Source: Streptomyces spinoverrucosus (GTDB taxonomy: Bacteria; Actinomycetota; Actinomycetes; Streptomycetales; Streptomycetaceae). From it: a DNA stretch of 64,000 bases. The DNA is taken from the NCBI RefSeq assembly GCF_015712165.1, contig NZ_JADPZX010000001.1:2356001-2420000 (forward strand). The letters are read 5' to 3'. The notes under the pieces are model-generated. The model was not told the origin of the DNA. It made no database searches and worked only from the letters and a program-made list of their open reading frames with translations. A program made the translations under genes and the position numbers. Shown one piece after another: positions 24,394-61,803 of the stretch (position 1 is its first letter; each line of letters starts with the position of its first letter).

Positions 24394-27300
24394 TCACCCC
24401 TTCTCCAGATACTGCTCCCTCTCCTCGTCCAACAGGGCGTCCAGGGCCGTGCGCAGGGCCGGTAGGCCGGTCAGGTCGGGGTCGGTGGTGACCACCTTGG
24501 TGGCCTCCTCCCGGGCCTCCGCGATGATCTCCTCGTCCTCGATGACGGCCAGCACCCGCAGGCTGGTACGGGCGCCGGACTGGGCCTGGCCGAGGACGTC
24601 GCCCTCGCGTCGCTGTTCGAGGTCGATGCGGGAGAGTTCGAAGCCGTCGAGCGTGGCGGCCACCGAGTTCAGCCGCTGGCGGGCTGCGCTCGCCTCGGGC
24701 ATCTCGGTGACCAGCAGGCACAGTCCGGGTGCCGAGCCACGGCCGACGCGGCCGCGCAGTTGGTGGAGCTGGGAGACGCCGAAGCGGTCGGCGTCCATGA
24801 TCACCATCGCGGTGGCGTTCGGCACGTTCACGCCGACCTCGATGACTGTGGTGGCCACCAGGACGTCCGTCTCTCCGGCGGCGAACCGGCGCATGACGGC
24901 GTCCTTGTCGTCGGGCTGCATCCGGCCGTGCAGGACCTCGACCTTGAGTCCCTGGAGTGGGCCCTTGGCGAGGTGGTCGGCCACGTCGAGGACGGCGAGC
25001 GGGGGGCGCTTCTCGGCCTCGTCCTCGGGGGACTTCTTCTTTTTCGCCGCCTTGGGGTCGTCCTCCTCGTCGCCGATGCGCGGGCAGACGACGTACGCCT
25101 GATGGCCCTGGGAGACCTCCTCGCGCACCCGCTCCCAGGTCCGGGCCAGGAAGTGCGGCTTGTCGGCGGCGGGGACGACATGGCTGGCGATCGGGGAGCG
25201 GCCGGCCGGGAGCTGGTCGAGGACCGAGGTCTCCAGGTCGCCGAAGACGGTCATGGCGACCGTGCGCGGGATCGGCGTGGCGGTCATGACCAGCAGGTGG
25301 GGCGGCTGCTTGCCCTTGCCGCGCAGGGCGTCGCGCTGCTCGACGCCGAAGCGGTGCTGTTCGTCGACGACGACCAGGCCGAGGTCGTGGAACTGGACCT
25401 TGTCCTCGATCAGCGCGTGCGTGCCGATCACGATCCCGGCCTCGCCGGTGACGAGATCGAGCAGCGCCTGTCGGCGGGCGGCGGCGCCCATGGAGCCGGT
25501 CAACAGCACCACCTTGGTGGCCTGCTCAGCGCCACCCAGCATCCCGCCCTCGGCCAGTTCGCCCATCATCTCCACGACCGAGCGGTGGTGCTGCTGGGCG
25601 AGCACCTCGGTGGGCGCGAGCATGGCGGCCTGCCCGCCCGCGTCGACGACGGCGAGCATGGCGCGCAGGGCGACCATGGTGTTGTGGGTCACCGTGAAGT
25701 TGTCGGTGACGTAGGCATGGCTGGGGTGGGCGACACTGATGCACTGGACCGGCTTGCGTCCCACATATTCGACTGCACGGATGCCGCGGCGGAAGGTGTT
25801 GTATTTCGGCCGGTGCCGCACCCGGTCTGCCTTGCGGGACAGTCGGAACGGAGCGTACTCGTCGGGCAGTGCGACGGAGACCTCGAAGGCGGTTCGCTTC
25901 AGCAGGATCCGTGCTCGGCCTCCCAGCGAACGCACAAGCCAGGCAACATCATCTGCGAGCCGGCGTGAGGCCGAGCAGAACGAGATGCTGAGGCCACTCG
26001 CCTGAATGGTGCCGTCAGTGTCCAGGAGCCCCTGCAGCAGAGCGAGACGGTTCTTGATCGAGGTGTTCTTGAACTCGGTGGGGATGAACTTGCCGTGTGA
26101 GGTCAACCCCCACAATCCCAGAGTACGGAGGGCCTGGATGATGGGGTTGCGTACGCCGCCCGTGCGACGGGTGAGCTGGATCGTGTGGTCACACCGAGAG
26201 CCCGTAACCGGAACAAGGCGGCAGTCGGGAGCCACGGCCGACGCCGCGGCATCGCGGATCTCGGCGTCGACGGTGGACAGCCTCAAGTTGTGTCGGAACG
26301 AGCCGCCGCCCAGCAGCAGACCGAAGAGGTAAGGGTCGAGCGGCAGCTGCGAATCGTCCCCCAGGTCGACCGGGGTCGCCGCCGGGAGGTACCACTTCGA
26401 AGATCCGTTGGCCTTGAACGTGTCGAGACGGATCTCCCGCGTCGTCATGACCTTGGGAGCCTGGCCACGGTGCCATCCGCAGCTCGTACCGACGATCCAG
26501 AGATGCTCGTCGTCGCACTCGACAGAACTTCCGTCAGAGAGGACCAGCCGCCAGACATCACGCTCTCCCTGCGGGAAGACACCGTCGACCAGCGCGATCT
26601 CCCCGTCCGGAACGACAACCTCGTCTCCGACCGCCAGGTCCCCCATACGACGGAATCCGGTTGGTGTGAGCACGAGCGAGTCGAGCGGCTGGGCCTTCCC
26701 CGATCCGACCTCGCCCTGGAGCAGTCGGTGCATCGGGTGCTCGGTGGCCAGGTCGCCGAAGATCTCCTCGGAGACCTTCCGCTGGCCCTCGGTGAGGGTG
26801 AACGGCAGCCGGTCGTCGAAGGCGGCGAGGAGGCCGTCCGGCGTGGGCCTGCGGGGCACCGCGGGGAGCTGGGCGTCGGCGTGCCGGCGGCGGGCGAGGG
26901 CGACCTGGAGGACGAAGGCCTCGTCCCACTTGAGGCGGTCGCGGGCGTCGGCGATGTCCGCCTTGGTGTGCGGGCGGTGGATCTTCAGCAGCGCCTCGGG
27001 GAGGGAGACCAGGCCGCGGCCCTCACGGAGGGGGTCCGGGAGGGGGTCGAGGGCCTCCTGGGCGCTGGGGAGCACGGTCTGGATCGCCTTGCCGATCTTC
27101 CAGGACTCCAGCTTGGCGGTGGCCGGGTAGATCGGGATCAGGGCGCCCGCCCAGGTGTCGATCGCCTCCTCGGCGTCCCCCTTCAGCAACTCGTACGCCG
27201 GATGTGCCAGTTGCAGTCGGCGGTTGAAGACGGAGACCTTGCCCGCGAACATCGCGCGCGTGCCCGGCAGCAGTTCCTTGTGGGGTTTGTGCACGCCGTG

Positions 27301-27615
27301 GCCGAAGAAGACCAGTTGGAGCCGGCCGCTGCCGTCGGTGATCGTCACTTCCAGACGCTGGCCCTTGCCGCGGGGCGCCTTGGCGGAGGCGAAGCTGTGC
27401 AGACGGGCGTCGGCGACCTGGGCGACCACGGTGACGTGCTCGTCCAGGGGGAGGTCGGCGAGGTGGGTGAGCTGGCCCCGCTCCTCGTATCTGCGTGGGT
27501 AGTGATGCAGGAGGTCGCCGACGGTGTGCAGGCCGAGATGCTCGGCCATCACCTTCGCGGTGGCGGGGCCGAGCACCTTCTTGAGTGGTTCTTCCAGTGC
27601 GGGCACGAGATCCAT
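24394..27615 (-). CDS. recG: ATP-dependent DNA helicase RecG, containing an intein
   Basis: The branch-migrating helicase that remodels stalled forks and Holliday junctions. The 1073-residue precursor has the N-terminal wedge/OB domain (RRYEERGQLTHLADLP, VTITDGSGRLQLVFFG), then the helicase domain: Walker A at GEVGSGK/T, DEQHRFG (motif II), MTATPIPRTVAMT (III), TVIEVGVNVPNA and QLRGRVGRG (V/VI). The Walker A Lys and Thr are separated by a 338-residue insertion with all marks of an intein (25681-26694). Without it RecG is 735 residues, the normal size. The start is ATG 27615 (MDLVPALEEPL). Active helicase requires the insertion to be spliced out. Confidence 0.96.
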   Translation of the reverse strand: MDLVPALEEPLKKVLGPATAKVMAEHLGLHTVGDLLHHYPRRYEERGQLTHLADLPLDEHVTVVAQVADARLHSFASAKAPRGKGQRLEVTITDGSGRLQLVFFGHGVHKPHKELLPGTRAMFAGKVSVFNRRLQLAHPAYELLKGDAEEAIDTWAGALIPIYPATAKLESWKIGKAIQTVLPSAQEALDPLPDPLREGRGLVSLPEALLKIHRPHTKADIADARDRLKWDEAFVLQVALARRRHADAQLPAVPRRPTPDGLLAAFDDRLPFTLTEGQRKVSEEIFGDLATEHPMHRLLQGEVGSGKAQPLDSLVLTPTGFRRMGDLAVGDEVVVPDGEIALVDGVFPQGERDVWRLVLSDGSSVECDDEHLWIVGTSCGWHRGQAPKVMTTREIRLDTFKANGSSKWYLPAATPVDLGDDSQLPLDPYLFGLLLGGGSFRHNLRLSTVDAEIRDAAASAVAPDCRLVPVTGSRCDHTIQLTRRTGGVRNPIIQALRTLGLWGLTSHGKFIPTEFKNTSIKNRLALLQGLLDTDGTIQASGLSISFCSASRRLADDVAWLVRSLGGRARILLKRTAFEVSVALPDEYAPFRLSRKADRVRHRPKYNTFRRGIRAVEYVGRKPVQCISVAHPSHAYVTDNFTVTHNTMVALRAMLAVVDAGGQAAMLAPTEVLAQQHHRSVVEMMGELAEGGMLGGAEQATKVVLLTGSMGAAARRQALLDLVTGEAGIVIGTHALIEDKVQFHDLGLVVVDEQHRFGVEQRDALRGKGKQPPHLLVMTATPIPRTVAMTVFGDLETSVLDQLPAGRSPIASHVVPAADKPHFLARTWERVREEVSQGHQAYVVCPRIGDEEDDPKAAKKKKSPEDEAEKRPPLAVLDVADHLAKGPLQGLKVEVLHGRMQPDDKDAVMRRFAAGETDVLVATTVIEVGVNVPNATAMVIMDADRFGVSQLHQLRGRVGRGSAPGLCLLVTEMPEASAARQRLNSVAATLDGFELSRIDLEQRREGDVLGQAQSGARTSLRVLAVIEDEEIIAEAREEATKVVTTDPDLTGLPALRTALDALLDEEREQYLEKG
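25681..26694 (-). mobile_element. Intein with LAGLIDADG-type homing endonuclease domain, inserted in the RecG P-loop
   Basis: The element covers precursor residues 308-645, between Lys and Thr of GSGKT. The N-terminal splicing block is AQPLDSLVLTPTGFRRMGDL; residue 1 is Ala, not Cys or Ser. Block B ends ECDDEHLW, block F has VQCISV, and the C-terminus is FTVTHN followed by Thr+1. The combination of non-nucleophilic first residue, Trp after the block B His, block F Cys and Thr+1 is the WCT signature of class 3 inteins, where the block F Cys starts splicing. Two dodecapeptide motifs are visible: LFGLLLGGGSF (about residue 432), where Gly replaces the usual Asp, and LLQGLLDTDGTI (about 527), intact. 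Splicing should be possible; homing activity is doubtful. Confidence 0.88.
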
Positions 27616-27798
27616 TGCACACCACGGCACTGACAACGGCGTAGGCATCCCGGCGACAGATCCGTATACGTCTCGGGAATCCCCTGGTCAGACGGCTCGT
27701 TCGGGCTCTAGGATGACGCGCTCCGGCCATCCTTTCGCGGTCACCGCCTCACCGGGACCGCCCGACCCCGCGCCGAAGCGCTTCCCCCCACCGGCGCT

Positions 27799-47950: not shown

Positions 47951-48001
47951 CGGCCGGACATGCCGATGGGCCCCCACCGAAGTGGAGGCCCATCGATTGC
48001 G

Positions 48002-48074
48002 TACCCCCGACCGGATTCGAACCGGCGCTACCGCCTTGAGAGGGCGGCGTGCTAGGCCGCTACACAACGGGGGC
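48002..48074 (-). tRNA. tRNA-Glu (CTC)
   Basis: A complete 73-nt cloverleaf on the minus strand: acceptor GCCCCCG, anticodon loop CTCTCAA (anticodon CTC) within a CCGCC/GGCGG stem, T-loop TTCGAAT. The acceptor's first pair is a G-T wobble. Last gene of the tRNA cluster. Confidence 0.95.
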
Positions 48075-48102
48075 ATGGACTCTGCGTTTCCGCAGGTCCG
48101 AG

Positions 48103-48174
48103 CTGGTCTACCTGGACTCGAACCAAGACTAACTGAACCAGAATCAGTCGTGCTGCCAATTACACCATAGACCA
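48103..48174 (-). tRNA. tRNA-Gln (CTG)
   Basis: A 72-nt cloverleaf on the minus strand: acceptor TGGTCTA/TAGACCA, anticodon loop TTCTGGT (anticodon CTG) in an ACTGA/TCAGT stem, T-loop TTCGAGT. Confidence 0.95.
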
Positions 48175-48194
48175 ATGTGGTTTAGACCAGTCAG

Positions 48195-48267
48195 TACCCC
48201 CGACCGGATTCGAACCGGCGCTACCGCCTTGAGAGGGCGGCGTGCTAGGCCGCTACACAACGGGGGC
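48195..48267 (-). tRNA. tRNA-Glu (CTC)
   Basis: Identical in sequence to the tRNA-Glu at 48002-48074 over the mature region; 73 nt, anticodon CTC. Confidence 0.95.
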
Positions 48268-48297
48268 CCTAGCGATCCCGAGAGGACTCGGAACCAG

Positions 48298-48370
48298 TAC
48301 CCCCGACCGGATTCGAACCGGCGCTACTGCCTTGAGAGGGCAGCGTGCTAGGCCGCTACACAACGGGGGC
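48298..48370 (-). tRNA. tRNA-Glu (CTC), anticodon-stem variant
   Basis: A 73-nt tRNA-Glu. It differs from the other two copies by a compensatory pair in the anticodon stem (CTGCC/GGCAG in place of CCGCC/GGCGG), so the fold is kept. Confidence 0.95.
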
Positions 48371-48410
48371 TTTGCGGATGTGATCCGCGATTGCAGATGA
48401 GCTCTGCGAG

Positions 48411-48482
48411 CTGGCCTACCTGGACTCGAACCAAGACTAACTGAACCAGAATCAGTCGTGCTGCCAATTACACCATAGGCCA
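48411..48482 (-). tRNA. tRNA-Gln (CTG), acceptor-stem variant
   Basis: A 72-nt tRNA-Gln with acceptor TGGCCTA/TAGGCCA, a compensatory change from the copy at 48103-48174. First gene of the cluster in the direction of transcription. Confidence 0.95.
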
Positions 48483-52258: not shown

Positions 52259-52860
52259 CGTCGTCTTCACGGTTGTACTGAACCCTGTCGTGTACGGGGC
52301 GCCGGAAGCGCCGGTTGGCAGAATGTCGCCTCTTGTAAAGCGTCAGGCTAAACATCCGATTCCCCGCCGATGGCACGAAGCGGCCTGGAGCTCCGTGTGA
52401 GTTTGCTCACGAACTCGCGCTCAAATCGGTCAATTCAGGCTCGCAACTCATGCCAACGAAACGGACATTGACCCACTGAAGCTCTCATTCCGCTCCTGAT
52501 CATGGCGACTGGGACACCCCGCACACCCCGGCGACTCGTTCGGTTATGTCCGCTATAAGGCGGAGGTCGCTCTACGTGTCGTGACGTCACCCTCACGTGG
52601 TGTCACGGAGGTCACAGCCTGACCAACTGGCCTTGTTGGAGATCCTGCACTGTGCTGGAATTCCACGGACCGCCGCAGGATCGAGCCGGCGCGCAGGGGG
52701 CGCGAAACAGCGTCGCTCCTGACGAGTGAGCGGCGAGAAGGGGGAGTCCAGCGCCGGTCACTCACGACCACCCGGGTGCGTATTCAGGGCGTGCCCGACA
52801 TCGCCGACACCGTCCTTCCGTTCACGCGGAGGGGCGCCTGGTCCAGAGGTTGCGACGCTA
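52259..52860. other. Divergent control region upstream of conservon 1
   Basis: No gene is seen here. Several GTCAC/GTGAC half-sites cluster at 52580-52615, including the perfect palindrome GTGACGTCAC (52581-52590), and GTGAG-TTTG-CTCAC lies at 52397-52410. It should contain the promoters of the conservon and of the small peptide gene. Confidence 0.5.
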
Positions 52861-55800
52861 GTGCAGGGACGTTTCAAGAGGGATGGCAGCGGTTCGGCGG
52901 AGCCGGAGCCGCACGGCGGGACTGGCCCCATGGCCGGCAGCTCCTCGCCCCAGCACGCCCAGGGCCAGGGCCCGGCCCCGTCCGGCGACGGCGGTCCGCG
53001 CTCCGGGCGCACCGGCGCGTCCACGGCCTCCGGTCGCCCCGGCGCCTCGGCGTCCCCGGGCTCTTCCACCCCCGCTCCGACGGTGAAGCCGTCGCAGGGC
53101 GCGACCGGCCCCGGGCCGCGAATAGCCCTGCGCAACTGGCGCATCTCCACCCGCCTGGTGGCGCTGCTCACGCTCCCGGTGGTCGCGGCCACCTCGCTCG
53201 GCGCGCTGCGCATCAGCCAGTCCATGGACGACATCGAGCAGCTCGACAACATGAAGCTGCTCACCGAGATGACCAAGCAGGCCACCGAGCTGGCCGCCGC
53301 CCTCCAGGAGGAGCGCGACCAGTCCGCCGGCCCGCTGGCGCACGGCTCGACCACCAGCCCGATCACGGTCAAGGGCTTCCAGGACAAGACGGACCGGGCG
53401 CTGGAGAACTTCCTCAACGCCTCCGAGGAGGTCGACGCCGCCAGCAAGGACGGCAACCTCCAGGGCGTGCGCGACAGCGTGGTCGGTCTCGCCCGTGACC
53501 TGAACGGCCTCAACGAGATCCGCAACAACGCCTACGAGGCCGAGGGCAACTCCACGCAGACCGTGGAGGCCTACCACCGCCTCATCACGCACCTGCTGGA
53601 CCTCTCGCAGGACATGGCGGAGGCGACCAGCAACCCCGACATGATCCAGCGCACCCGCGCGCTGTCCGCGTTCTCCGCCGCCAAGGAGTACGCGTCGATC
53701 CAGCGCGCGGTCCTGGCGGCGGCCCTGCCCGCCAACAGCAAGACCTTCGGCGAGCTCTCCGAGAACGACCGGCTCTACGCCCAGTCGGCGCTGGAGAGCC
53801 AGGTCTCCGAGCTGCGCAGCTTCTCCAGCATCTACGGCGACGGCGCCGAGGAGCTGCTGGGGCCCATCGACCAGAACAACGCCACCATCGAGGCCACCGA
53901 CAAGTACGCCAGCCGCGCGCTGAACCGCCAGGACGGTCTTCGGGGCCTGGAGAAGCGGTCGTACCGGGACTGGCTGGACGACAGCTCCACCAAGATCCAG
54001 CAGATGAAGAACATCGAGCGCACGCTGCTGGAGCAGATGGAGCAGAAGGCGCGCGAGCTGCGCAGCGAGTCGGAGCGCGAGGCGATCATCTCCGGTGCGC
54101 TGGTGCTGGTCGTGCTCGGTGTCTCGCTGGTCGGTGCCTTCGTGGTGGCCCGGTCCATGATCCGGTCGCTGCGGCGGCTGGAGGACACCGCGACCAAGGT
54201 CGCCCAGGACCGGCTGCCCGAGCTGGTCAAGCAGCTGTCCGAGTCCGACCCGCAGGACGTCGACACGTCCGTGGAGTCGGTCGGTGTGCACTCCCGCGAC
54301 GAGATCGGCCGGGTGGCCGCGGCCTTCGACGACGTGCACCGCGAGGCGGTCCGCCTCGCCGCCGAGCAGGCCCTGCTGCGGGGCAACGTCAACGCGATGT
54401 TCACCAACCTCTCGCGCCGCTCCCAGGGTCTGATCCAGCGCCAGCTGTCGCTGATCTCCGAGCTGGAGTCGCGTGAGGCGGACCCGGACCAGCTGGCCTC
54501 GCTGTTCAAGCTGGACCACCTCGCCACCCGTATGCGCCGGAACGGCGAAAACCTCCTCGTCCTCGCCGGTGAGGAGCCCGGCCGGCGCTGGACCCGGCCG
54601 GTCCCGCTGGTCGACGTGCTGCGTGCCGCCGCGTCCGAGGTGGAACAGTACGAGCGCATCGAACTGGCCTCGGTGCCGACCACCCAGGTGGCCGGCCGCG
54701 TGGTCAACGACCTCGTGCACCTGCTCGCCGAGCTGCTGGAGAACGCCACCTCGTTCTCCTCGCCGCAGACCAAGGTCAAGGTCACCGGTCACGCGCTGCC
54801 CGACGGCCGCGTGCTGATCGAGATCCACGACACCGGTATCGGCCTGTCCCCCGAGGACCTCGCCCAGATCAACGAGCGGCTCGCCTCGCCGCCCACCGTG
54901 GACGTCTCCGTCTCCCGCCGCATGGGTCTGTTCGTGGTCGGCCGCCTGTCGCAGCGCCACGGCATCCGCATCCAGCTGCGCCCGTCCGACTCCGGTGGTA
55001 CGACCGCGCTGGTCATGCTGCCGGTCGACGTGGCCCAGGGCGGCAAGAAGCCGCAGGGCAATCCCGGTCAGGGCGGCCCCGGTGGCGGTGGCGGTCCGGC
55101 CGCCGCGCAGGCCGCCGCCGGTGCGGCCGCGGCCCGGCGTGGCAACGGCCCGTCGCTGGGCGCCGGTGCGCCCGGTGGTGGTGCCCTGGGCGCCGGTGCG
55201 TCCGGCGGTGGCCGGCTCGGCGCCGGTCAGGGCCCGCGTGCCGCGCTGCCGGGCCGCGACTCGGGCGGTGCCCCGGGTGCGCCGGGCGGGGCGCGTGGAC
55301 CGCAGACTCCCCCGGCCCCGCAGCAGGGCCGGCCGGCCGGTGTGGGCAACGCCCAGACGCCGGTTCCCCCGCAGGGCCAGGAGGCCCGCGGCCCCGTGGC
55401 ACCGCAGCGCGGCGACGCGAACGCCGGTGGCGGGCGCGGCCGGCGTGGCCGTCAGCCGCAGCTGCCGCCGCGTGGCGGAGCGCGGGCCGAGCTGCCGGGC
55501 GGCAACGAGCCGCAGCAGCGCCCGAGCTGGAGTGACGAGAACGCGCAGCCGCCGGTGTCGCGCGCCGCGCTGGACACCCCGCGCGGCCACGACGAGCAGC
55601 GGGACCCGTCGCAGACGGCCCCGATGCCGCGCATCGACGACCGGCAGGGCCCGGGCTCCACCTCCGAGTTCCCCCGCGTCGACGACCGCCAGGGCCCCGG
55701 CGCGAACGGATCGCAGAACAACGGCCAGTTCGTCCGCTCGGACGTCTTCGGCGGCCCGTCCGGCCCGGCCGGTCCCTCCGCGCCGAGCAACCCGAACAAC

Positions 55801-56679
55801 CCGTCCGACACGGGCCAGTTCGCCGCACCGCAGGGCTACGACAACGGCTCCACCGGCCAGTACCCCGCGCCGCAGCGGCAGGACAACGGCGCGACCGGCC
55901 AGTACGCCGCGCCGCAGGGCTACGACAACGGGTCCACGGGTCAGTTCCCGGCTCCGTCGGGCTACGACAACGGGGCTACCGGCCAGTACGCCGGGTACGA
56001 CGGCTCCTCCACGGGTCAGCACTCGCTGCCCGGCGGCCGCCAGAACTCCTCCGGCACCGGCCAGTTCGAGCGCCCGCAGGGCGACTTCGCCGGCCACCGG
56101 CCGCCGGCCCCGCAGCGTCCGCAGCAGCGGCCCGGCCGCCCGGAGCCGGAGGCGCTGCCGCCGGCGTCGGGTCCCGGTGACGGGCGTACGCCGCTGTACG
56201 ACACGCTGGAGACGAACTGGTTCCGCGGCCAGGCAGGCCAGGCGGGTCAGCCCGGTCAGCCCGGTCAGCAGTCGCAGCCGGGTCAGCAGTCCCAGCCGAG
56301 CCGGCCCGAGCGCCCGCAGGGCAACGGCGCCGCGCCGGCCCCGCAGCAGCCGCAGGGCCCCTCGGCTCCACAACGTCCCGCCGCTCCCGCCTGGCGCAGC
56401 TCGCCGAACGACGACCTCGTCCGGCAGGCCGAGCGCGTCCGGCAGCCTGCCGCGGGCGGTGTCACCACGTCCGGCCTGCCGCGTCGAGTGCCCCGGGCGA
56501 ACCTCGTCCCGGGCACGGCTCAGCAGCAGCCGCACCAGAGCGGTCCGCAGGTCTCGCGCGCCCCACAGGACGTGCGCGGTCGGCTGACCAACCTCCGTCG
56601 GGGTATCGCACAGGGCCGTCAGGCCGGGTCCGGCCAGACGGGCAGTTTCCCGAGCCCCACTCACCAGCAGGAGCGTTAG
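52861..56679 (+). CDS. cvnA1: Conservon histidine-kinase-like sensor (CvnA), first copy
   Basis: A 1272-residue membrane sensor. A disordered Ser/Pro/Gly head is followed by TM1 (about 100-118), an extracellular sensing region with long helices (QATELAAALQEERDQSAGPL), TM2 (about 408-430), a HAMP-like linker and a GHKL ATPase domain: ELLENATSFSSPQTKV (N-box, about 624) and DTGIGLSPEDL (G1, about 656). LDHLATRMRRNGENLLVL holds the candidate phospho-accepting His. Residues 727-1272 are disordered, rich in Gly, Pro and Gln with GYDNGSTGQ repeats, and end with GLPRRVPRANLVPG. Start GTG 52861. Conservons resemble eukaryotic GPCR-like signalling modules in organisation. Tail function unknown. Confidence 0.9.
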   Translation: MQGRFKRDGSGSAEPEPHGGTGPMAGSSSPQHAQGQGPAPSGDGGPRSGRTGASTASGRPGASASPGSSTPAPTVKPSQGATGPGPRIALRNWRISTRLVALLTLPVVAATSLGALRISQSMDDIEQLDNMKLLTEMTKQATELAAALQEERDQSAGPLAHGSTTSPITVKGFQDKTDRALENFLNASEEVDAASKDGNLQGVRDSVVGLARDLNGLNEIRNNAYEAEGNSTQTVEAYHRLITHLLDLSQDMAEATSNPDMIQRTRALSAFSAAKEYASIQRAVLAAALPANSKTFGELSENDRLYAQSALESQVSELRSFSSIYGDGAEELLGPIDQNNATIEATDKYASRALNRQDGLRGLEKRSYRDWLDDSSTKIQQMKNIERTLLEQMEQKARELRSESEREAIISGALVLVVLGVSLVGAFVVARSMIRSLRRLEDTATKVAQDRLPELVKQLSESDPQDVDTSVESVGVHSRDEIGRVAAAFDDVHREAVRLAAEQALLRGNVNAMFTNLSRRSQGLIQRQLSLISELESREADPDQLASLFKLDHLATRMRRNGENLLVLAGEEPGRRWTRPVPLVDVLRAAASEVEQYERIELASVPTTQVAGRVVNDLVHLLAELLENATSFSSPQTKVKVTGHALPDGRVLIEIHDTGIGLSPEDLAQINERLASPPTVDVSVSRRMGLFVVGRLSQRHGIRIQLRPSDSGGTTALVMLPVDVAQGGKKPQGNPGQGGPGGGGGPAAAQAAAGAAAARRGNGPSLGAGAPGGGALGAGASGGGRLGAGQGPRAALPGRDSGGAPGAPGGARGPQTPPAPQQGRPAGVGNAQTPVPPQGQEARGPVAPQRGDANAGGGRGRRGRQPQLPPRGGARAELPGGNEPQQRPSWSDENAQPPVSRAALDTPRGHDEQRDPSQTAPMPRIDDRQGPGSTSEFPRVDDRQGPGANGSQNNGQFVRSDVFGGPSGPAGPSAPSNPNNPSDTGQFAAPQGYDNGSTGQYPAPQRQDNGATGQYAAPQGYDNGSTGQFPAPSGYDNGATGQYAGYDGSSTGQHSLPGGRQNSSGTGQFERPQGDFAGHRPPAPQRPQQRPGRPEPEALPPASGPGDGRTPLYDTLETNWFRGQAGQAGQPGQPGQQSQPGQQSQPSRPERPQGNGAAPAPQQPQGPSAPQRPAAPAWRSSPNDDLVRQAERVRQPAAGGVTTSGLPRRVPRANLVPGTAQQQPHQSGPQVSRAPQDVRGRLTNLRRGIAQGRQAGSGQTGSFPSPTHQQER

Positions 56680-57102
56680 TTGAGTCCGATGAGCCAGGCG
56701 GCACAGAACCTGAACTGGTTGATCACCAACTTCGTGGACAACACCCCCGGGGTGTCCCACACCGTCGTCGTGTCCGCCGACGGTCTCCTCCTGGCGCTGT
56801 CGGAGGGCTTTCCGCGCGATCGCGCCGACCAGCTGGCGGCGGTCGCATCGGGGCTCACCTCACTGACGGCCGGGGCGTCCCGGATCTTCGAGGGCGGCAA
56901 CGTGGCGCAGACCGTCGTGGAGATGGAGCGGGGATTCCTCTTCCTCATGTCCGTCTCGGACGGCTCGTCGCTCGCCGTTCTCGCGCACCCTGACGCGGAC
57001 ATCGGCCTCGTCGGCTACGAGATGGCGCTGCTGGTAGACCGGGCGGGAGCGGTGCTCACCCCGGACCTGCGCGCCGAACTGCAAGGAAGTCTGCTCCACT
57101 AA
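56680..57102 (+). CDS. cvnB1: Conservon roadblock/LC7 protein (CvnB), first copy
   Basis: A 140-residue roadblock/LC7 (MglB-like) protein: AAQNLNWLITNFVDNTPGVSH, VVSADGLLLALSEGFPRDRAD, SRIFEGGNVAQTVVEMERG. It probably acts on the GTPase CvnD. TTG 56680 is preferred because AGGAG sits 6 bases upstream; the second copy has GTG at the same place. ATG 56689 is the alternative. Nearly directly after cvnA1. Confidence 0.92.
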   Translation: MSPMSQAAQNLNWLITNFVDNTPGVSHTVVVSADGLLLALSEGFPRDRADQLAAVASGLTSLTAGASRIFEGGNVAQTVVEMERGFLFLMSVSDGSSLAVLAHPDADIGLVGYEMALLVDRAGAVLTPDLRAELQGSLLH

Positions 57103-57213
57103 CGTCCCAGGATCCACCCGTCTCACCAAATCACCGTCCGGCCGCCACAATCCCCCCACCGGCCACCGTCAGACGGCACGACTGACCAACTTGCTGTCCC
57201 GCCCGGAGGATTC

Positions 57214-57612
57214 ATGACCCCGCCCACCGCCTCTCATGATCCGTACACAGATCCGTACGGGGACGAGGGCGACCAGCCGCTGGTACGTCCGTACGCGATG
57301 ACCGGCGGCCGGACCCGGCCGCGCTATCAGCTCGCCCTGGAGGCGCTGATCAGCACCACGGCCGACCCGGCAGCGCTCATGGGACTGCTCCCGGAGCACC
57401 AGCGCATCTGCCACCTGTGCCGCGAGGTGAAGTCGGTCGCCGAGGTCTCGGCGCTGCTCGCCATGCCGCTCGGTGTGGCGCGGATCCTTGTCGCGGACCT
57501 GGCCGAGGCCGGACTCGTGGCCGTCCACCAGCCGGGCGGCGACGAGGCCAACGGCGGTGCGCCCGACGTGACACTGCTCGAAAGGGTGCTCAGTGGCCTT
57601 CGCAAGCTCTGA
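57214..57612 (+). CDS. cvnC1: Conservon DUF742 protein (CvnC), first copy
   Basis: A 132-residue protein of the DUF742 family: PLVRPYAMTGGRTRPRYQLALE, LPEHQRICHLCREVKSVAEVSALL, and GVARILVADLAEAGLV (a winged-helix-like part). It probably links sensor and GTPase. ATG 57214, GGAGG upstream. Overlaps cvnD1 by 20 bases. Confidence 0.92.
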   Translation: MTPPTASHDPYTDPYGDEGDQPLVRPYAMTGGRTRPRYQLALEALISTTADPAALMGLLPEHQRICHLCREVKSVAEVSALLAMPLGVARILVADLAEAGLVAVHQPGGDEANGGAPDVTLLERVLSGLRKL

Positions 57613-58168
57613 ACCGAGAGGTGCCACCACCTCTGCCAAGATCGTGGTGGCGGGCGGCTTCGGCGTGGGCAAGACCACGTTCGTGGGCGCCGTCTCGGAG
57701 ATCAACCCGCTGCGCACCGAGGCGGTCATGACGTCCGCGAGCGCGGGCATCGACGACCTCACGCACACCGGGGGCAAGACCACCACGACGGTGGCGATGG
57801 ACTTCGGCCGTATCACGCTGGACCAGGACCTGATCCTGTACCTGTTCGGTACGCCGGGTCAGGACCGCTTCTGGTTCATGTGGGACGACCTGGTGCGCGG
57901 CGCCATCGGCGCGGTGGTCCTGGTGGACACCCGCCGGCTGGCGGACTGCTTCCCGGCGGTGGACTACTTCGAGAACAGCGGCCTGCCGTTCGTGGTCGCC
58001 CTCAACGGCTTCGACGGGCAGCAGCCGTACGCGCCGGAGGAGGTCCGCGAGGCGCTGCAGATCGGTCCGGACACCCCGATCATCACCACCGACGCCCGGC
58101 ACCGGGCCGACGCCAAGTCCGCGCTGATCACGCTGGTGGAGCACGCTCTGATGGCCCGGTTGAAGTAG
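57593..58168 (+). CDS. cvnD1: Conservon small GTPase (CvnD), first copy
   Basis: A 191-residue Ras-like GTPase: Walker A GGFGVGKTTFVGAVSE, G3-like FGTPGQDRFWFMW, G4-like LNGFDG. The Gln of the usual DxxGQ is in PGQDRF, as in MglA-like proteins. GTG 57593, within the end of cvnC1, indicating coupling. Output of the module. Confidence 0.93.
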   Translation: MAFASSEPRGATTSAKIVVAGGFGVGKTTFVGAVSEINPLRTEAVMTSASAGIDDLTHTGGKTTTTVAMDFGRITLDQDLILYLFGTPGQDRFWFMWDDLVRGAIGAVVLVDTRRLADCFPAVDYFENSGLPFVVALNGFDGQQPYAPEEVREALQIGPDTPIITTDARHRADAKSALITLVEHALMARLK

Positions 58169-58557
58169 CACTCAAGTGAGCGGCTTCGTACGGCAGTTGC
58201 CGTAGGGGTCGTCATCGTGACAGCGGAGCCGGCTGTGGCCTTTGACACGGTCGGCTTCGGTGTTCATAACGTTTCGGCAGAGGAATCCGGTGGTACCGCC
58301 ACGCGTCGCGGTCACATGGTCTCGCTGCGCGCACAAAAGCCCCGTCTTTTGACGGGGCTCGCTCTTTATGACCGTTTTATCTAGGGCTTACCTCGGGGGG
58401 AATCAGCCCTTTCCCATGTTTGGAAGAGCGCAGGTCGACGTGCTGGAATGCCTGAACTGCCCAAAGGTCAAAGACGTACTCAGTGGTCGATGGCGATCTG
58501 GGCTCTGAGACACTGCGGCACGACGTAGGTGCCCGCCGCCGAGAGGTTGTTGGTCGA
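58169..58557. other. Spacer between conservon 1 and conservon 2
   Basis: It holds the terminator of the first operon (58336-58357) and must hold the promoter of the second, in the about 200 bases after it. No gene is seen. An in-frame start for cvnA2 exists upstream (58483), but without a ribosome site. Confidence 0.55.
58336..58357 (+). terminator. Terminator of conservon 1
   Basis: AGCCCCGTC and GACGGGGCT form a perfect 9-bp stem around TTTT. A short T-containing tract (CTCTTTAT) follows. About 170 bases after cvnD1. Confidence 0.82.
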
Positions 58558-61500
58558 GTGAGGCGAAGCAACAAAGGTCCCGAGCCGCCCGCCCGGGGCA
58601 ACTTCACCCCGCCGCCGCGCGGAGCGGCGCCCGCCCCTGCTGTGCCCGGTTCGGAGCAGGTGGCCGCGCCCGCTCCGAGCGGCGGCCGTTTCTCCCCGCG
58701 CAACTGGCGCGTGGCGACCCGGCTGAACGCGATCCTGCTCATCCCCGTGCTGGTCGGCCTGGTCATGGGCGGCTTCCAGGTGAAGGGCTCGATCGACACC
58801 TGGCAGGAGGCCGAGGACGCGGAGAACACCGCGCGTCTGGTCCGGGCCGCCCTGACTTATGGCGACGCGCTCTACAACGAGCGTGACGTCACCGCGTCCC
58901 CGCTGTTGCTGGGCCGCGACCAGGCCACCGTCACGCAGGCGCGCAAGCAGACCGACGAGGCCGCCGACGCCTTCGACGAGGCCGCCCAGAACATGCCGCA
59001 GAAGGCGGGTCTGGAGCGCCGGCTGAGCCTGCTCCGTGAGGCGGAGCCCAAGCTCCAGGAGCTGCGACAGGTCGCCTACACCTCCCGGCTCACCGGCGTG
59101 CAGACGGAGGAGGGCTACGTCCAGGTCGCCCACCCGCTGATGGAGTTCGCCAACGAGCTGGGCCTGGGCACCGGAAACATCACCAGCTACGGCCGGACCG
59201 TCTACGCGATCTCGCTGACCAAGGCGGCGCTGTCGCTGGAGCGCTCCATCGGTATGCACCTGCTGGTCAAGCCGGGCCCGAAGGACACCGACCTGGCCAA
59301 GCAGCGCGTGGCGCTCTCCTCGTACGCCTACCTGGAGGGCATCGCCGTCGAGGAGTACATCGGCGGTGGTACCGAGGCCGACGCGCAGAAGCTGGAGGAC
59401 GCCGAGGCCAGGATCAAGGCGGACGGCCAGCAGCAGGCCAAGGAAGCCCTGGCCAAGGACCCGGACTACAAGGCGCCGCCGTCCGACCCGACCGTGATGG
59501 TCGCGGCCGTCGCGGGTCTGACCACCACCGACGCCTCCGCGCGGGACGCACTCGCCCAGCAGGGCATCACCGCCGAGAACTGGTGGGCGGTGAACACCCT
59601 CAAGTACAACGCGTACCGCCAGATCGAGTCGGACCTGGCCGACACCGCGGTGAACGAGGCCGCGAGCATCGCCGACGACGCCAAGCAGGACGCCATCATC
59701 ACCGGCGCCATCGTCGTGGTCGCCCTGCTCGCCGCGTTCATCCTGGCCGGCATGGTGGCCCGCCAGATGAGCCGCTCGATGCGCCAGCTGCGCAACGCCG
59801 CCTTCGGCATCGCCGAGCAGCGCCTGCCGATGCTGGTCGACCAGCTCTCGCGCACCGACCCGGGCCGCGTCGACACCCGCGTCTCGGCCATCCCGATCAC
59901 CTCCACGGACGAGATCGGCGAGGTCGCCCGGGCCTTCGACCAGGTGCACCGCGAGGCCGTCCGGCTCGCCGCCGAGCAGGCTCTGCTGCGGGGCAACATC
60001 AACGCGATCTTCACCAACCTCTCGCGTCGCAACCAGTCGCTGATCGAGGGCCAGCTGACCCTGATCACCGACCTGGAGAACAACGAGGCCGACCCGGACC
60101 AGTTGGAGAACCTCTTCAAGCTGGACCACCTGGCGACCCGTATGCGCCGCAACGGCGAGAACCTCCTGGTCCTCGCCGGCGAGGAGCCCGGCCGCCGCTG
60201 GGACCAGCCGGTCCCGCTGGTCGACGTGCTGCGCGCCGCCTCCTCCGAGGTGGAGCAGTACGAGCGCATCGAGATATCCGGCGTGCCCGAGGCCGACATC
60301 CACGGCCGTGCCGTGACCGACCTCGTGCACCTGCTGGCCGAGCTGCTGGAGAACGCGACCACGTTCTCCTCCCCGCAGACCAAGGTCCGCGTCACGGCGA
60401 CCCGTCTCCCCGACGGCCGCGTGATGATCGAGATCCACGACAAGGGCATCGGCCTGACCGCCGAGGACTTCGCGGACATCAACCACAAGCTGGCCAACCC
60501 GCCGACCGTGGACGCCGCGATCTCCCAGCGCATGGGCCTGTTCGTGGTCGGCCGACTGTCCGACCGGCACGGCATCCGCGTCCAGCTGCGCCCCTCCGGC
60601 GAGCAGGCCGGCACCACCTCGCTGGTCATGCTCCCCGACGCCATCACGCACGGCGGTGGCGGCGAGCAGGCGCCGGACCGCGAGGAGTTCACCGTCTCGC
60701 AGATCATCCCGGAGCAGCAGTTCCAGGGTGAGAGCTTCAGCCAGCCGATGCGTACGGCCGCCGAGCTCGGCTTCGACGACAGCCGCTACACCGAGGTCCC
60801 CGACGACATCCGCGAGCTGGACCCGGTGGGCCGCTCCCTGATGCGCGAGGAGCGCCGCGCGGCCCTGGAGGCCCAGACCCACGGCCAGCAGCCCGGCCAG
60901 GAGCCCACCGAGGCCCAGGCGTACGCCGACGGCGGCTACGACGGCCGACAGGGCCAGCAGGCCTACGACAACGGCGGCCGGCCGTACGACGCCGGTCAGC
61001 CCGGCTACCCCGACCAGGCCGCGGCCTACGGTCAGCAGTCGGCGTACCAGGACCAGACGTCGTACGAGGACCCGCAGCAGCGGTCGTACGACGAGCAGTA
61101 CTACGCGCCGAACGGGATGCCGCAGGGCGATGGTTTCCAGGCCAACGGCGGCTACCCGGAACCCGGTTATGCGGAGCCTGCCCAGGAGGCGCCCGCGGCG
61201 GTGCCGTCCGGGTCGTCGGAGAGCTTCTCGGCCTTCGAAGAGCAGTCCTACCAGGGCGACTGGCAGCAGCGGGACGGCTACCAGAACGGGTACGCCGACC
61301 AGTACGCTCCCGAAACGGAATCTGCGCAGGCCGCTGACGCGAGTGCGCGGGACCGCGTAGGCTTCGACCGTCCGGGACCGGGCAACACCGCAGCGCACGC
61401 GCTGACCGACGCCGGGCTTCCCCGCCGGGGATCCACCGGTGACGGCCAGGCGGCCGGCCGGCCCGCGAACCGGGACGCGGCGGCCCCTTCGGCGGAGAAC

Positions 61501-61803
61501 AACGCCGACGACGGCTGGCGCTCGGCGAACGACGAGCGCTGGCAGCAGGCCTCGCAGCTCCGCAAGCCGAAGGCGGGCGGGGTTACCTCCTCCGGCCTGC
61601 CGCGGCGGGTGCCCAAGGCCAATCTGGTCGAGGGTGCCGCGGAGTCGACCCCGCAGGGCGGCCCACAGGTCTCCCGCGCCCCCGAGGACGTCCGGGGCAG
61701 GCTGAGCAACCTGCGCCGGGGTGTCCAGCGGGGACGCAGCGCAGGAAGTGAAACGAACGGCCAGGGCTTCGGTCCTGACAGCACCTACAACCAGGAGCGT
61801 TAG
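58558..61803 (+). CDS. cvnA2: Conservon histidine-kinase-like sensor (CvnA), second copy
   Basis: A 1081-residue paralogue of cvnA1. TM1 is at about 57-73, the periplasmic-side region (nitrate-sensor-like helices) to about 375, TM2 at about 379-401, then HAMP-like and GHKL ATPase domains (ELLENATTFSSPQTKV, about 594; DKGIGLTAEDF, about 628). LDHLATRMRRNGENLLVL is identical to cvnA1. The tail from about 700 is Tyr/Gln/Gly rich but lacks the GYDNGSTGQ array; it ends GLPRRVPKANLVEG. Start GTG 58558; GTG 58483 is possible but weak. Confidence 0.9.
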   Translation: MRRSNKGPEPPARGNFTPPPRGAAPAPAVPGSEQVAAPAPSGGRFSPRNWRVATRLNAILLIPVLVGLVMGGFQVKGSIDTWQEAEDAENTARLVRAALTYGDALYNERDVTASPLLLGRDQATVTQARKQTDEAADAFDEAAQNMPQKAGLERRLSLLREAEPKLQELRQVAYTSRLTGVQTEEGYVQVAHPLMEFANELGLGTGNITSYGRTVYAISLTKAALSLERSIGMHLLVKPGPKDTDLAKQRVALSSYAYLEGIAVEEYIGGGTEADAQKLEDAEARIKADGQQQAKEALAKDPDYKAPPSDPTVMVAAVAGLTTTDASARDALAQQGITAENWWAVNTLKYNAYRQIESDLADTAVNEAASIADDAKQDAIITGAIVVVALLAAFILAGMVARQMSRSMRQLRNAAFGIAEQRLPMLVDQLSRTDPGRVDTRVSAIPITSTDEIGEVARAFDQVHREAVRLAAEQALLRGNINAIFTNLSRRNQSLIEGQLTLITDLENNEADPDQLENLFKLDHLATRMRRNGENLLVLAGEEPGRRWDQPVPLVDVLRAASSEVEQYERIEISGVPEADIHGRAVTDLVHLLAELLENATTFSSPQTKVRVTATRLPDGRVMIEIHDKGIGLTAEDFADINHKLANPPTVDAAISQRMGLFVVGRLSDRHGIRVQLRPSGEQAGTTSLVMLPDAITHGGGGEQAPDREEFTVSQIIPEQQFQGESFSQPMRTAAELGFDDSRYTEVPDDIRELDPVGRSLMREERRAALEAQTHGQQPGQEPTEAQAYADGGYDGRQGQQAYDNGGRPYDAGQPGYPDQAAAYGQQSAYQDQTSYEDPQQRSYDEQYYAPNGMPQGDGFQANGGYPEPGYAEPAQEAPAAVPSGSSESFSAFEEQSYQGDWQQRDGYQNGYADQYAPETESAQAADASARDRVGFDRPGPGNTAAHALTDAGLPRRGSTGDGQAAGRPANRDAAAPSAENNADDGWRSANDERWQQASQLRKPKAGGVTSSGLPRRVPKANLVEGAAESTPQGGPQVSRAPEDVRGRLSNLRRGVQRGRSAGSETNGQGFGPDSTYNQER

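Follow-up and report, generated by a model that had tools for sequence, protein, structure and literature searches.

A putative class 3 intein with a LAGLIDADG endonuclease domain in the Walker A motif of Streptomyces spinoverrucosus RecG

The recG gene of Streptomyces spinoverrucosus lies within a stretch of 64,000 nucleotides of contig NZ_JADPZX010000001.1 (positions 2,356,001 to 2,420,000), hereafter the window. In its product, 338 in-frame residues separate the Lys of the Walker A motif from its Thr. This raises the question of what the insert is and how a helicase can work with it. Very probably, it is an intein of class 3 that includes a LAGLIDADG endonuclease domain, splices and has spread by homing; homing in this genome is probably lost or weak. 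Judging from sequence, the segment almost certainly excises itself and joins the two parts of RecG, and we infer that RecG activity depends on this splicing.

The insert and its splicing residues

The recG open reading frame (window 27648-24394, minus strand) is open through all 1084 codons. Translation placed the insert at 25681-26694, stop-free and with the RecG frame kept on both sides, so that the coordinates given by an earlier sequence-only reading, with 338 residues exactly between Lys and Thr, were correct to the base. The junctions read ...LLQGEVGSGK / AQPLDS...FTVTHN / TMVALRA..., the flanks being those of the RecG Walker A motif. The NCBIfam RecG model NF008167 matched the reading frame in two stretches with 1125 bits (cut-off 995); the stronger of the two covers residues 654-1084. 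The general RecG model TIGR00643 scored 643.3 bits, under its cut-off of 659.4. The first ATG is at 27648; because the database copy of the protein (P0003) has 1073 residues, translation may start 11 codons downstream.

For comparison, a set of RecG inteins was assembled from 121 proteins and from those retrieved loci whose junction could be recognised, giving 185 different sequences. The extraction pattern consisted of a GSGK-like flank and an HN or NN end followed by Thr, and it made no use of the Trp, the Cys or Thr336. It was found that Ala1, Asp61, His64, Trp66, Cys318, Thr336, His337 and Asn338 are each identical in all 185 sequences, and 169 of these are 338 or 339 residues long. Class 3 inteins are defined by the absence of the first nucleophile together with Trp B12, Cys F4 and Thr G5, the WCT triplet (PMC3196547; also PMC7664689), and in block B of the DnaBi1 intein DxxH replaces TxxH (PMC6195587). 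The insert has Ala in place of Cys, Ser or Thr at position 1, the full triplet of Trp66, Cys318 and Thr336, the block B His64, a His337-Asn338 end and a +1 Thr. The motifs named beforehand, namely an initial Ala, EHLW in block B, VQCISV in block F and a THN end before Thr, were all present. The columns of the W, C, T and block B His were invariant in 34 of 34 aligned rows, five other host families included.

A profile search returned class 3 DnaB inteins with E values of 5.8e-23 and 1.5e-22 and native gp41-1 with 9.3e-14; by this measure, the insert appears closer to known class 3 inteins than to other inteins. The structure model (predicted local distance difference test, pLDDT, 93.6) has the Hint fold, as a splicing domain around a LAGLIDADG endonuclease, and fold comparison put class 3 DnaB mini-inteins first among mini-inteins, by a narrow margin. 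The assignment to class 3 (WCT) in the RecG P-loop was thus supported by sequence and by fold, and a profile search without splicing blocks, which the sequence-only reading had named as a refutation, did not occur, such blocks being found by profile and by fold. Two Pfam results weigh against this assignment: PF14890 (Intein_splicing), which matched 6 of 14 control genomes, gave no match anywhere in this genome, and for Hint_2 the insert gave no better than E=0.059. LAGLIDADG_3 was the sole Pfam family over cut-off there. A search of the genome for a second such intein (limit E 10) gave only one other row, at E=0.11 and with an internal stop.

Extraction of 90 RecG loci, a set that is not random and comprises the best matches of one search plus some chosen carriers, revealed 23 sites to be occupied and 67 to be empty. 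Since the key residues are common to all 185 RecG inteins and these 67 loci are empty here, the insert is not a product of chance. The carriers hold the segment as an intein beside the many empty sites and not as an unspliced domain; the latter, in many close relatives, is what the sequence-only reading had named as a refutation.

Splicing, rival explanations and the endonuclease

RecG would be made as a precursor with a broken adenosine triphosphate (ATP) site. Following the known class 3 pathway, Cys318 of block F would attack the upstream Lys-Ala bond to give the first branched intermediate, the N-terminal half of RecG would be transferred to the +1 Thr side chain, Asn338 would cyclise and free the intein, and an acyl shift would leave an ordinary GSGKT P-loop. 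The family would have spread through homing, its endonuclease acting on recG alleles without the insert; with Asp130 changed to Gly in this genome, homing would probably be lost or weak, and selection on RecG would keep splicing.

Three other explanations were weighed. Loss of splicing through decay, which would leave RecG inactive in this strain, has a precedent in the Arthrobacter Arth_1007 intein (PMC3196547), and one catalytic Asp of the endonuclease is indeed lost here. The described pseudogene is without Cys F4 and His B10 (PMC3196547), whereas the window intein has both; with its splicing residues intact, its reading frame open through 1084 codons and few amino-acid changes in the splicing part, such decay is very improbable. 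Still less credence is due to a class 1 or class 2 chemistry begun by another residue. Class 2 inteins likewise do not have an N-terminal nucleophile, but they are reported from KlbA genes only (PMC3196547), and both the full WCT triplet with a DxxH block B, marks of class 3, and the best profile matches, to class 3 DnaB inteins, speak against it. That the segment is a permanent extra domain of RecG, never removed, would agree with the continuous reading frame; it is scarcely believable, since the Walker A motif would be broken apart, the segment holds the splicing residues within a Hint fold, and it is cleanly missing from the empty loci.

We conclude that a splicing class 3 intein is by far the best explanation, and the state of its endonuclease can be read on this basis. 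Positions 130 and 227, which we take to be the LAGLIDADG catalytic positions, both hold Asp in 144 of the 185 RecG inteins. The window copy does not have Asp in both motifs, as an active homing endonuclease of this type would, and shares the combination of Gly130 and Asp227 with 10 others. Because Asp130 became Gly, homing in this genome is probably lost or weak; this lost Asp is a feature absent from the sequence-only reading. In 13 of the 185, shorter than 330 residues, 17-80 positions are missing, the first and the last of them between residues 71 and 292.

Comparing the window copy with that of locus L013, 57 codons were found to differ in the splicing part (residues 1-100 and 291-338), of which 6 change the amino acid, and 109 in residues 101-290, of which 36 do so (Fisher p=0.0013). 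Loci L014, L018 and L023 gave the same direction, and mean column conservation was 0.91 for residues 1-100, 0.83 for 101-290 and 0.93 for 291-338. As estimated from these substitutions, this shows stronger purifying selection on the splicing part than on the endonuclease, and the pattern is that of an endonuclease decaying while splicing is maintained. The homing-cycle view expects splicing to be kept during endonuclease decay.

Table 1. Features of the interrupted recG gene, in window coordinates
Feature	Position	Strand	Basis or remark
RecG N-extein, residues 1-318 to the Walker A Lys	26695..27648	-	True start maybe 11 codons downstream
Probable class 3 intein with LAGLIDADG endonuclease domain, 338 residues	25681..26694	-	Junctions, conserved residues, profile, model
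Ala1, without N-terminal nucleophile	26692..26694	-	185/185 RecG inteins
Cys60, nearly invariant non-catalytic Cys adjoining block B	26515..26517	-	184/185
Block B DxxHxW: Asp61, His64, Trp66 (W of WCT)	26497..26514	-	185/185 each
Block C, first LAGLIDADG motif, Gly130 instead of catalytic Asp	26302..26328	-	Asp in 159/185
Block E, second LAGLIDADG motif, Asp227 intact	26011..26037	-	LAGLIDADG_3 E=9.7e-7; Asp in 163/185
Cys318, block F nucleophile (C of WCT)	25741..25743	-	185/185
Block G Thr336-His337-Asn338 (T of WCT, penultimate His, terminal Asn)	25681..25689	-	185/185; [HN]N end required by pattern
RecG C-extein, 428 residues plus stop, first residue Walker A Thr (+1)	24394..25680	-	Reading frame and NF008167

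The neighbours tested include, on one side of recG, genes for a formamidopyrimidine-DNA glycosylase, a cytidylyltransferase-like protein (presumably CoaD-like) and a Cons_hypoth95 protein (presumably RsmD-like), and on the other side genes for a DAK2/FakA-like and an AIR synthase-related protein. Elsewhere in the window, five transfer RNA genes, Glu(ctc) and Gln(ctg), form a tandem cluster at 48001-48482, and 52726-61803 encodes two large histidine kinases that have nitrate/nitrite-sensing (NIT) domains. Small open reading frames in the same direction come after each of them, a layout that we take to be that of conservon operons.

Distribution and horizontal transfer

Among 392 genomes of the genus, 122 matched the intein at E <= 1e-3. 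By hand count among the matches listed, 71 genomes, the own genome included, hold a match of at least 60% identity, the level found in RecG inteins; 45 of these matches are unbroken and 26 are in pieces. A protein search gave 3296 related proteins among 8000 scored, with the same junction in 120 of 120 of the matches listed. In a class sample of 394 genomes (E <= 1e-30), no match listed from outside the genus exceeded 46% identity. Relatives below 60% identity were found in 734 of 50697 phage records, and viral contigs held two relatives of 30% identity.

On the extein tree, presence of the intein changes 18 times in 90 rows and 17 times in the 89 rows of the genus. For the 22 carriers of the genus, pairwise intein and extein distances were correlated (r=0.84), with a median intein/extein ratio of 1.8. 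A simple recent sweep was rejected on this correlation and on third positions that are 1.5 times more different in the intein. Purely vertical descent was not accepted either, given the 17 changes of presence and a tree conflict, genomes G002 and G018 being joined in the intein tree (99/96) and apart in the extein tree; repeated loss could account for part of this. Met at +2 was present at all 22 occupied sites of the genus and at 49 of its 67 empty ones (Fisher p=0.0047). As independent tree pairs gave a median p of 0.125, we do not claim that it reflects target choice or co-conversion.

When 12 loci were compared with the window, only two, L213 and L211, had inteins more alike than both exteins; for L074, intein identity exceeded that of the N-extein only. 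L213 comes from G441, a genome (4% contamination) in a different class of the phylum, where RecG (805.6 bits, cut-off 718) carries the intein at the same site, with 58% identity in the intein against 44% and 52% in the exteins. L211 (NZ_CP120357.1) lies on a Rhodococcus plasmid, whose RecG-like gene scored 647.7 bits, under the 718 cut-off, and carries an intein at the same site. In the protein tree, which has several long branches, both group with RecG inteins (97/94), apart from inteins of other host genes, and L213 adjoins the intein of G037, from another family of the order (98/91). Because these two inteins are closer to that of the window than their exteins are to its exteins, horizontal transfer is the best reading, and the comparison suggests transfer of the RecG intein across taxa, in one direction or the other. 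On the plasmid, the RecG-like helicase gene with its intein is followed by two tyrosine recombinase genes (L211:2603-6280). The plasmid is a possible vehicle for the RecG intein and suggests one route of spread.

A possible switch and comparison with known inteins

InBase lists an S. avermitilis RecG intein. A 2018 review includes RecG in Table 1, among the proteins that carry inteins, and also describes insertion into the P-loop of helicases (PMC5874633). Inteins in RecG and class 3 inteins are both already known, and the window copy is a further member; the supposition that no class 3 intein had been described in a streptomycete RecG holds in so far as the literature search found no recognisable paper naming one, and fails as to kind, RecG being among the reviewed hosts and relatives being many. 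What the survey adds is that a chromosomal repair helicase appears dependent on class 3 splicing in the 71 genomes counted above, in a large antibiotic-producing genus. Close relatives hold natural alleles with the intein, without it and with a damaged endonuclease, and such allele pairs are a good setting for asking if an intein is a regulator of its host or a mere parasite.

Cys60 stands four residues ahead of the catalytic His64 and, though it is no splicing residue, is conserved in 184 of 185 RecG inteins; the four other non-catalytic Cys of the window copy are found in 149-170 of 185. By analogy with the Cys48-Cys118 pair of mycobacterial DnaB, the intein might act as a conditional switch, in which a reversible Cys60-Cys318 disulfide or metal binding under oxidative stress would delay splicing and hold RecG inactive. 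This we consider unlikely; a splicing domain kept after endonuclease decay fits such a role and does not demonstrate it. In DnaBi1, oxidation leads to a disulfide of the nucleophile Cys118 with Cys48 (PMC6195587). Because the position of Cys48 is Val47 in the RecG intein, pairing of Cys60 with Cys318 would differ from that arrangement.

The closest known relatives are the RecG inteins of other Streptomyces (for example P0058 of S. avermitilis, and L013-L092), with the same gene, the same GSGK/T site and 67-88% identity in the 80 loci kept. They differ in that most of the RecG set keeps both Asp, whereas the window copy has Gly130. The intein of the Rhodococcus plasmid has the same site, 53% identity and the WCT residues; it differs in being plasmid-borne, in a host under the NCBIfam RecG cut-offs and with exteins only 34% and 47% identical.

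Nine weaker matches of the genus were opened and lie in PhoH (4), TraG-like proteins of a type IV secretion system (T4SS; 2), a UvrD-like protein, DnaB and an AAA protein (1 each), six hosts being named by Pfam and three by junctions. The inteins of PhoH (two), DnaB, UvrD-like, T4SS TraG-like and AAA proteins (L122-L126, L128) have the WCT residues and 30-44% identity. They differ from the RecG intein in host, and the PhoH and TraG-like insertion sites lie away from the P-loop GK/T. The PhoH inteins (L122:462-2672, L128:1840-5145), at the site MRGR/A...THN/TL, have a Cys at the position of Cys60. The WCT intein of the AAA-domain protein (L126:3303-4445) would start with Phe1-Cys2 if its site is GTGK/T, which is unusual for class 3. 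In another actinomycete family (L245, genome G1208), a large open reading frame holds a WCT intein, 46% identical, at GAGK/T; its host protein had no NCBIfam match at 1e-10.

Among inteins of known structure, mycobacterial class 3 Msm DnaBi1 (6bs8) and Mch DnaB1 (6rix) have a Hint fold within 1.5-2.1 Å of the modelled RecG intein and share with it the WCT triplet, the block B His and Ala1. Unlike the RecG intein, Msm DnaBi1 is without an endonuclease domain (PMC6195587).
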